Below the pieces are notes generated by a model, which saw only the letters and a list, made by a program, of their open reading frames with translations, made no database searches and had not been told where the DNA came from. From an uncultured Eubacterium sp. (GTDB taxonomy: Bacteria; Bacillota; Clostridia; Lachnospirales; Lachnospiraceae), in assembly GCA_947384955.1 (NCBI GenBank), contig CANDJC010000036.1:1-37796 (forward strand): DNA of 37,796 nt, in the 5' to 3' direction. Shown here one piece after another: positions 1-26,400 of the stretch (position 1 is the first letter of the stretch; every line of letters starts with the position of its first letter). A program made the translations under genes and the position numbers.

Positions 1-220
1 TTTCTGCGGCGGGGCTTGTGGCTGCGGACGGACCGGCGCCTGATGCCCTGGCGTTTCTGGCTGCTGAAAACAGTGGCACTGGCAGGCGCCTTTTGGGGAC
101 TTTAAAGTTTTATCGGGCTATAAGCAGTGTGTCCCCAAATCCTGTGTATTGAGCAGAAAACTAAGAACTTCCAGCTTTTTTCCAGAGTCACATCCCAGGG
201 AAAACCTTTCTCCATCCGGC
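1..220 (+). repeat. Hairpin repeat element E1, cut by the window start
   Basis: Right part of a non-coding element also present at 450-730, 25028-25308 and 26087-26365. By comparison with the 281-bp copies, about 60 bp are missing on the left. Visible are the internal stem GGCGCCTG/CAGGCGCC, the stem around GGGGAC/GTCCCC, the inner arm beginning GCAGAAAACTAAGAACTT, and the right end 190-220. That end differs from the other copies (it ends CCATCCGGC) and its partner lies outside the window. The sequence just after the element (TGACAGTGGC) recurs after E3 and, slightly changed, after E4. No open frame is conserved across the copies. Confidence 0.85.
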
Positions 221-449: not shown

Positions 450-730
450 GCTGGATGGAGAAATTTTTTCCTTCTGATGTGACTCTGGAAAAAAGCTGAA
501 AGTTCTTAGTTTTCTGCTCAGTACCCAGGATTTGGGGACACACTGCTTCCAGCCCGATAAAACTTTAAAGTCCCCAAAAGGCGCCTGCCAGTGCCACTGC
601 TTACAACAGCCAGTAACGCCAGGGCATCAGGCGCCGGTCCGTCCGCAGCCACAAGCCCCGCCGCAGAAAACTTAGAACTTTCAGCTTTTTGGAAGCGGAA
701 CATCAGAAGGAAAAAATTTCTCCATCCAGC
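450..730 (-). repeat. Hairpin repeat element E2, complete (281 bp)
   Basis: Complete element in reverse orientation. Its ends, 450-480 and 700-730, are perfect 31-nt inverted repeats (GCTGGATGGAG at the outer edge, CTGATGT at the inner edge). They are followed inward by 37-nt imperfect arms that include matching GAAAGTTCT blocks on both sides. The centre holds the GGCGCCTG/CAGGCGCC stem and the TTTGGGGAC/GTCCCCAAA stem. Compared with E3 and E4, the ends carry substitutions that occur on both arms at once (GGATGG against GGAGGG, CTG against CGG). It lies downstream of the C-glycosidase-type operon and its terminator. It has no coding capacity. Confidence 0.9.
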
Positions 731-24953: not shown

Positions 24954-25027
24954 ATGTCGTTTGCTTCCTGCTGGAGGGTTCCTCCCTGGTTTGTTGGGTG
25001 ATAATTGTACGTTATTGGGGAAGGGAC

Positions 25028-25308
25028 GCTGGAGGGAGAAAATTTTTCCTTCGGATGTTCCGCTTCCAAAAAGCAGGAAGTTCTAAGTTTTCTGCATCAA
25101 GGCTGTGGCAGCGGACGGACCGGCGCCTGATGCCCTGGCGTTACTGGATGAATTTAGGCAGTGGCTCTGGCAGGCGCCTTTTGGGGACTTGTAAGCTGTA
25201 TCAGACGTCAGGCAGTGCGTCCCCAAATCCTGGGTATTGAGCAGAAAACTAAGAACTTCCAGCTTTTTTCCAGAGTCACATCCGAAGGAAAAATTTTCTC
25301 CCTCCAGC
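25028..25308 (+). repeat. Hairpin repeat element E3, complete (281 bp)
   Basis: Perfect 31-nt inverted ends lie at 25028-25058 and 25278-25308 (outer edge GCTGGAGGGAG, inner edge CGGATGT). They continue into 37-nt imperfect arms at 25059-25095 and 25241-25277, both with AGTTTTCTGC-type inner edges. The 145-nt centre contains GGCGCCTG (25122-25129) paired with CAGGCGCC (25171-25178), and TTTGGGGAC (25180-25188) paired with GTCCCCAAA (25219-25227). The whole can fold as one long stem capped by two hairpins. Asymmetric blocks in the arms (TCCGCTTCC on one side, CCAGAGTC on the other) are kept in all copies that show them and give the element a direction. No coding capacity is conserved. Confidence 0.9.
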
Positions 25309-26086
25309 TGACAGTGGCAGTATTTCACGTTACAAATCTGGCTGAAGTCATTTATTTTCAGGCAGACTGTTGAAAATTAAAAGAACGTTATCAAATGGAT
25401 TATGAAAAAATCGCCCCCTTTCCCTGACTAAGGCCAATTGTATTTTACTTATGGAAACCCAGTCAAAGCTGAATTTAAGTGCCCTTCAGCCCGGCACTGA
25501 CTGCACTGACTGGGTTCCCGACGTAAAATCGGGGACGCCTAAGCCAGTGAAGAGGATGTAAAGGCTTATTAACTTCTGAAACATTTGAATTTACTGGGGC
25601 TGGGCCGATTTTGGATATAGAAAACTGACACTGCCAGGTAAAACCAGAGAGATGAAATTATGATATCATTAATATCTCTCTATGATCAGCCTTTTCAAGA
25701 TAACAGCTATTAATGAGCAAATTTGAAAAATGCACAAAAATGCTTTGATTTATTCATGTCAAAATACAAGATACAAAGAACAAAAATATTTCATCTTGCT
25801 CATATTGTATATTTTAACTATACTACTCCAGTTTACAGCTTTTCTGATTTTAATGTTCATTTATGTTAATATATACTATATATTGTATTTAGTTATATTT
25901 AAACAATATATATATGGTATGAAATCAAAAACTTGTAAACTAGTGTTAAATTTGCTCATTTATAGATTACAACTGTAAAAGTCTGAATTGAAACTTTAAG
26001 CAAAGATACATAAACCCGAACCAGCAGTATGAACCATAATTCACTAACGTACAGCCAGGTCTGAAACGTAAATTCAGCCACTATCA
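25309..26086. other. 778-bp AT-rich island between convergent repeats E3 and E4; no clear gene
   Basis: Both borders start with a related tail (TGACAGTGGC and, on the other side, TGATAGTGGC), followed by TTTACGTT-like sequence. Inside are a large stem-loop at 25442-25529 (ATTTTAC/GTAAAAT outside GGAAACCCAGTCA/TGACTGGGTTCC) and an AGAGAGAT/ATCTCTCT dyad at 25646-25681 around an ATGATATCAT palindrome. The 25680-25980 part is far more AT-rich than the rest of the window. An 82-codon frame (25730-25978) there could encode a hydrophobic peptide but has no ribosome binding site. The island may be the decayed cargo of a mobile element or host a structured RNA; neither can be shown here. Confidence 0.5.
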
Positions 26087-26365
26087 GCTGGAGGGAGCAA
26101 TTTTTTCTTCGGATGTGACTCTGGAAAAAAGCTGGAAGTTCTTAGCTTTCTGCTCAATACCCAGGATTTGGGGACACACCGTCTGACGTCTGATACAGCT
26201 TACAAGTCCCCAAAAGGCGCCTGCCAGATCCACTGCCTAAATCCATCCAATAACGCCAGGGCATCAGGCGCCGGTCCGTCCGCTGCCACAATCCCGGCGC
26301 AGAAAGCTTAGAACTTCCTGCTTTTTGGAAGCGGAACATCCGAAGAAAAAATTGCTCCCTCCAGC
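26087..26365 (-). repeat. Hairpin repeat element E4, complete (279 bp)
   Basis: Perfect 30-nt inverted ends at 26087-26116 and 26336-26365. Compared with E3 each end has the same base changes and the same one-base deletion (GGGAGCAATTTTTTC), so the arms changed together. The inner arms also share AGCTTTCTGC where E3 has AGTTTTCTGC on both sides. Internal stems are as in E3. Its flank (TTGGGTGAT and TGGGGAAGGGAC on the minus strand) matches that of E3, so the homology continues past the paired ends and reaches the stop codon of the next gene at 26401. Confidence 0.9.
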
Positions 26366-26400
26366 GTCCCTTCCCCAGCCCCCATTCATCTATCCACACA

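Follow-up and report, generated by a model that had tools for sequence, protein, structure and literature searches.

TwoAYGGAY-type hairpins of a Lachnospiraceae genome occur as convergent pairs and are carried by dispersed, probably mobile units

The window, a stretch of 37,796 nucleotides from an uncultured Eubacterium sp. (Lachnospiraceae), contains an intergenic composite unit built from two hairpins of the TwoAYGGAY type (Rfam RF01731). The repeating unit in this genome is the convergent hairpin pair, which a previous sequence-only reading of the region had overlooked. We conclude that TwoAYGGAY-type hairpins in Lachnospiraceae are carried by dispersed, probably mobile units. The way their stems evolve would fit a constraint on a folded strand of DNA rather than on an RNA.

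A composite unit of two convergent hairpins

Two composite units are found in the window. The complete one (25023-26370, no strand assigned) is composed of a GGGAC foot, a hairpin, an AT-rich spacer, an inverted hairpin and a GTCCC foot. The left hairpin H (281 nt, 25028-25308, plus strand) has its outer-stem arms at 25028-25058 and 25278-25308. The right one (279 nt, 26087-26365, minus strand), with outer-stem arms at 26087-26116 and 26336-26365, is in the opposite orientation and 93% alike. The other unit, at 1-730, is cut by the contig start. Its left hairpin is truncated (1-220, plus strand) and its right hairpin (450-730, minus strand) is 88% identical to 25028-25308. The complete unit is intergenic, as are the other units of the genome, and no preference in the orientation of the genes around the units of the genome was detected. 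An outer foot (C)GGAC, mostly GGGAC, stands ahead of nearly every listed copy of this genome; beyond this foot, the outer limit of the units is not sharp. In the outer flanks of L034, L026 and L055, the foot is tandemly duplicated just outside the hairpin.

The AT-rich spacer that separates the two hairpins (778 bp, 25309-26086, no strand assigned) is conserved between copies only in the ca 22 nt adjoining each hairpin (TGGTTTTGGCTGAATTTACGTT). It contains no ORF longer than 82 aa and no transposase gene of its own. Part of another, shorter AT-rich repeat is present within it (25828-25891, minus strand, 79% identity). This second repeat, ca 102 bp long with ends CACCAGTTTACA, has 40 matches in this genome and sits in several spacers and elsewhere (L048:905-1030 in addition to the window copy). 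Some spacers also harbor tandem arrays of half-hairpin derivatives (L021:142-720, L048:474-875 and L030), the period being 119 or 168 bp in two of them. The longest spacer seen (L049) contains an 83-aa DUF3781 ORF alone, located between two hairpins (L049:1817-2068). This is the only recognizable spacer protein seen.

The hairpin measures ca 280 bp. Its outer stem of 30-31 bp is followed by a constant asymmetric internal loop, TTCCGCTTCC vs CCAGAGTCA. The second stem, of 28 positions, bears two A-A mismatches, present in 41 of 45 and in 45 of 45 copies. The tip is made of two constant hairpins with variable loops. All aligned tips share one orientation, which argues against a flip-flop, and rolling-hairpin replication was therefore discarded. 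Two arm subtypes are observed, and seven units (L029, L031, L036, L040, L041, L043 and L050) combine one hairpin of each subtype. Judged by eye, several of these mixed units have similar variable tip loops in their two hairpins, as though one had been converted by the other.

The hairpins are a derived variant of the TwoAYGGAY family

The TwoAYGGAY motif was described by Weinberg et al. 2010. The sequence-only reading had taken the hairpins for an undescribed family, knew of no described family with such a layout, and had named two results that would speak against it, a match to an Rfam family and an alignment without covariation above expectation. The first was obtained. With permissive filters, RF01731 matches 25062-25274 on the minus strand (68.7 bits) and 26120-26332 on the plus strand (66.7 bits), for a gathering threshold of 43. 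The claim of an undescribed family is thereby overturned. The remainder of that interpretation stands: a folded single strand is under constraint, the two ends of each copy change together, and mobile elements are good candidates. Both matches lie on the strand opposite to the one used in that reading. Thus, on the Rfam strand, the unit consists of two TwoAYGGAY-type sequences placed back to back.

A default scan of the whole window at the Rfam gathering thresholds reported nothing and is misleading, probably owing to speed filters. The same filters probably explain why RF01731 was reported at only 2 of the 7 loci of this genome tried under permissive settings; under these settings, cmscan did not report the copy at 450-730. 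Among homologues from other genera, 13 of 13 loci scanned (20 were fetched) match RF01731, with 62-124 bits.

The loops that give the motif its name are absent from 49 of the 50 copies of this genome, and the remaining copy has one. Because of this loss, we consider the hairpins of this genome as a derived variant and not as plain RF01731 members; the minus-strand match at 25062-25274 is itself without AYGGAY loops. In congeners, at least one loop is found in 15 of 19 copies and two in 6 of 19. In other genera, the corresponding figures are 10 and 6 of 20 loci.

Copy number and distribution

A 27-nt core of the hairpin has 133 matches in the genome with at most 3 mismatches (69 forward and 64 reverse), vs none for the reversed control. 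The 100 core places among the matches listed are all exact. Among these listed matches, neighboring cores less than 2 kb apart on one contig are in the order plus then minus in 24 cases out of 24. An inverted hairpin doublet as the repeating unit, the arrangement expected of REPIN-type elements, is therefore found in all 24 listed pairs. Many of the unpaired copies are near contig ends, where the assembly breaks.

A covariance model of the hairpin was constructed, for which eight genomes supplied 25 sequences. Of the 13 genomes of the genus searched with this model, 11 have the hairpin, three of them with at least 150 matches, whereas G011 and G012 gave no match. In the family, 20 of 299 sampled genomes have it, the present one included. 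Convergent pairs are also found in the congener G006, which argues for a mobile unit. On the other hand, the listed hairpins of G211, from another genus, and of G303 are mostly single, which argues against it. Distant blastn searches of plasmid and phage collections with the hairpin gave no match. A pattern search identified 19 stretches in genome contigs, of which 11 were confirmed by profile, the remainder being spurious, and 3 stretches in viral contigs, none of which was confirmed.

Both arms of the stems change together

Fifty full-length copies from this genome were aligned and 45 of them were counted formally for covariation. Pairing is observed in 99.3% of 3283 cells, whereas only 42-55% of cells pair when the structure is slid along the alignment. 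As many as 30 of 74 pairs are altered on both sides, compared with 14.5 in shuffles, which bears out the view that the two ends change together from copy to copy. Double, compensatory changes occupy 214 cells (shuffled mean 46.7) and one-sided changes only 4. The covariation score is 0.195 vs 0.065 after shuffling. For each of these three measures, none of 500 shuffles was as high. A weaker measure, the number of further pair types, gave 47 vs 41.9, with 9 of 500 shuffles as high. The second result named against the sequence-only reading, an absence of covariation above expectation, is thus not observed. Its descriptions of the window copies were also confirmed: the outer arms of the three complete copies (30-31 nt) are perfectly complementary, differences between inner arms are matched on the opposite arm, and the asymmetric arm blocks are constant, the asymmetric loop holding across the aligned copies.

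The outer stem has 31 pairs, of which 21 are altered on both sides. Its 1355 cells in 45 copies contain 1334 Watson-Crick pairs, 5 G-T, 14 A-C and 2 others. The 50 copies of this genome have 6 G-T and 18 A-C, and 17 congener copies (5 rows were skipped) have about 15 G-T and 13 A-C. Hence the outer stems of this genome and its congeners have no G-U preference. Read on the Rfam strand, the counts of the 45 copies become 14 G-U and 5 A-C, but this slight bias no longer shows once congeners are added. Two observations go against a folded DNA: four copies of G303 have 5 G-T and no A-C, mostly at one shared position, and several G-U pairs are seen between species on the H strand of tip stem P4. A comparison with tRNAs gave 5 G-T and no A-C from merely 4 tRNAs, too small a sample for G-U frequency.

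Possible alternatives: a structured RNA or mutational copying

The hairpins could belong to a genuine structured RNA, the proposed CsrA-binding small RNA, that mobile elements have picked up and multiplied along with themselves. The two RNAs of each unit would then be read outwards from the spacer. We regard this explanation as possible but rather doubtful. It is in line with the curation of RF01731 as an RNA by Rfam and, in the available parts of these sources, with its first description as “probably” an RNA, not of the cis-regulatory kind (PMC2864571) and with the proposal that CsrA binds the TwoAYGGAY loops (PMC4333381). The retention of at least one loop by most congener copies also agrees with it. 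However, the loops are gone from nearly all copies here although this genome has CsrA, whereas in G006 and G008 the copies keep loops and no CsrA match was found (these genomes are 88-89% complete). Of 13 congeners, 11 have a CsrA match, this genome included, the other two being G006 and G008. The CsrA idea is therefore unsupported here, since the presence of CsrA does not track loop retention. The near absence of G-U from the outer stems also argues against an RNA. Outward promoter-like sites show no enrichment (7 of the 69 inner flanks vs 10.2 in shuffles), which would at most speak weakly against transcription. Besides the usual short CsrA, this genome (C9 and C146) and several congeners carry additional ORFs of 106-163 aa that contain a CsrA domain.

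Alternatively, the arms may be kept identical by mutation and not by selection, through template switching during replication (quasipalindrome correction). The large excess of double over one-sided changes and the rarity of both G-T and A-C would fit this mechanism. However, template switching would be expected to remove both the asymmetric loop and the A-A mismatches, yet these are constant, and it leaves the constant core and the copy number unexplained. We consider it improbable.

Evidence for mobility

An empty site was found for one unit. The unit at C10:30933-31844 of this genome (G000) has no counterpart in the corresponding intergenic region on contig C15 in G006. The flanks are 67-75% identical on both sides, with short anchors in addition, and the spacing of the anchors is about 92 bp in G006 vs 1022 bp in G000. 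The search compared 39 flank sets with 1.52 Mb of G006, and just this one was informative. L050 likewise had matches to G006 at both flanks, but these were too unclear to be retained.

In G211, the hairpin lies within a ca 310-bp element between terminal inverted repeats GATTCRGGTGTCAAAAGGT. The end pattern occurs at 104 places vs 14 for the control. We inspected 24 two-ended elements, some of them shorter deletion forms, for target-site duplications. Perfect 7-bp direct repeats lie outside 10 of 24 elements (mispaired control, 5.6%), and repeats matching at 6 or 7 positions outside 15 of 24 (control, 12.1%). The seven hairpin-bearing loci comprise five perfect repeats, one matching at 6 of 7 positions and one at 3 of 7. 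These elements are not all independent, since several share a CTATAAG-type target and a similar flank. Among the matches listed in G211, inverted ends pair at most ca 310 bp apart, and no parent transposon was found. No target-site duplication was detected for 12 units of the present genome, where the best direct repeats measure 0-6 bp, compared with up to 8 in the mispaired control.

Against mobility, certain unit positions may be common to more than one species. G000 and G006 both have units close to lexA and to a penicillin-binding-protein gene, and in G010 a hairpin-like stretch stands beside a homologue of the right-hand gene of the window. No convincing common neighbor gene was found across species, the yabP/yabQ neighbors being on different sides.

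No helper gene for the mobile units was found. This genome has one intact Y1 transposase, at a locus without the hairpin, and G006 has just a fragment. A true REP/REPIN system with its RAYT transposase, which the inverted doublet, high copy number and intergenic position would recall (as in REPINs, according to the available parts of the sources), is mostly refuted already and very improbable, since the hairpins are ten times the length of a REP, lack the GTAG tag and have no RAYT adjoining them. An association with RAYT/Y1 was not supported, only 1 of 20 Y1 loci (L124, in G003) having a weak hairpin match of 17 bits.

A model for a non-autonomous mobile unit

In the model that we propose, the region represents a single copy of a REPIN-like, non-autonomous mobile unit whose helper, encoded elsewhere, recognizes a folded strand. 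We see the case for this proposal as evenly balanced. The unit would consist of two convergent hairpins descended from TwoAYGGAY with the AT-rich spacer between them, and the pair would spread as one whole among intergenic sites. What the putative helper enzyme would recognize is the folded single strand of each hairpin, DNA being more likely here than RNA. Its recognition features would be the tip hairpins together with the A-A mismatches and the constant asymmetric loop. As the outer stem would need only self-complementarity, its sequence could drift freely, with the arms changing together.

More tentatively, and with less confidence than in the local model, TwoAYGGAY may be the recognition hairpin of miniature mobile DNA elements across Lachnospiraceae and not primarily a regulatory RNA. 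These elements would move via a folded single strand and their outer-stem arms would be rewritten together on copying. No function has been assigned to the motif since 2010. Carriage by mobile units, if real, would call for an explanation other than RNA regulation for the motif's abundance, covariation and patchy spread, and would make its function testable. It would also caution that strong covariation is not by itself proof of an RNA. In the available parts of the literature searched, we found no mention of TwoAYGGAY mobility. There, TwoAYGGAY is termed relatively unexplored in PMC11661157, and its helices were extended in PMC11701678 and PMC7657543.

Comparison with known systems

The units resemble MITEs: they are short and non-coding, have inverted ends and a target-site duplication in G211, and an empty site is observed. 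They differ from MITEs in that no sharp inverted end or target-site duplication is seen in this genome, no parent transposon was found and the interior is strongly structured.

As in REPINs and BIMEs, as far as the available descriptions go, the dispersed, species-specific intergenic unit is made of a pair of inverted hairpins. However, the hairpin here has 280 nt and not 20-40, without GTAG tag, and no RAYT was found. The CGTC-type tag at the foot of the hairpins (GACG/CGTC) is a mere resemblance.

The closest likeness is to TwoAYGGAY itself. The covariance-model match here spans the whole model, and the two share the stem, the internal loop, the two tip hairpins and, in the available part of the published description, an occurrence in gut Clostridiales. 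Unlike RF01731, the copies of this genome have lost the AYGGAY loops and carry a variable loop of ca 30 nt in the place of one tip loop. Their perfect 30-bp outer stem extends beyond the model, and they always occur in convergent units, with more than 130 core copies per genome.
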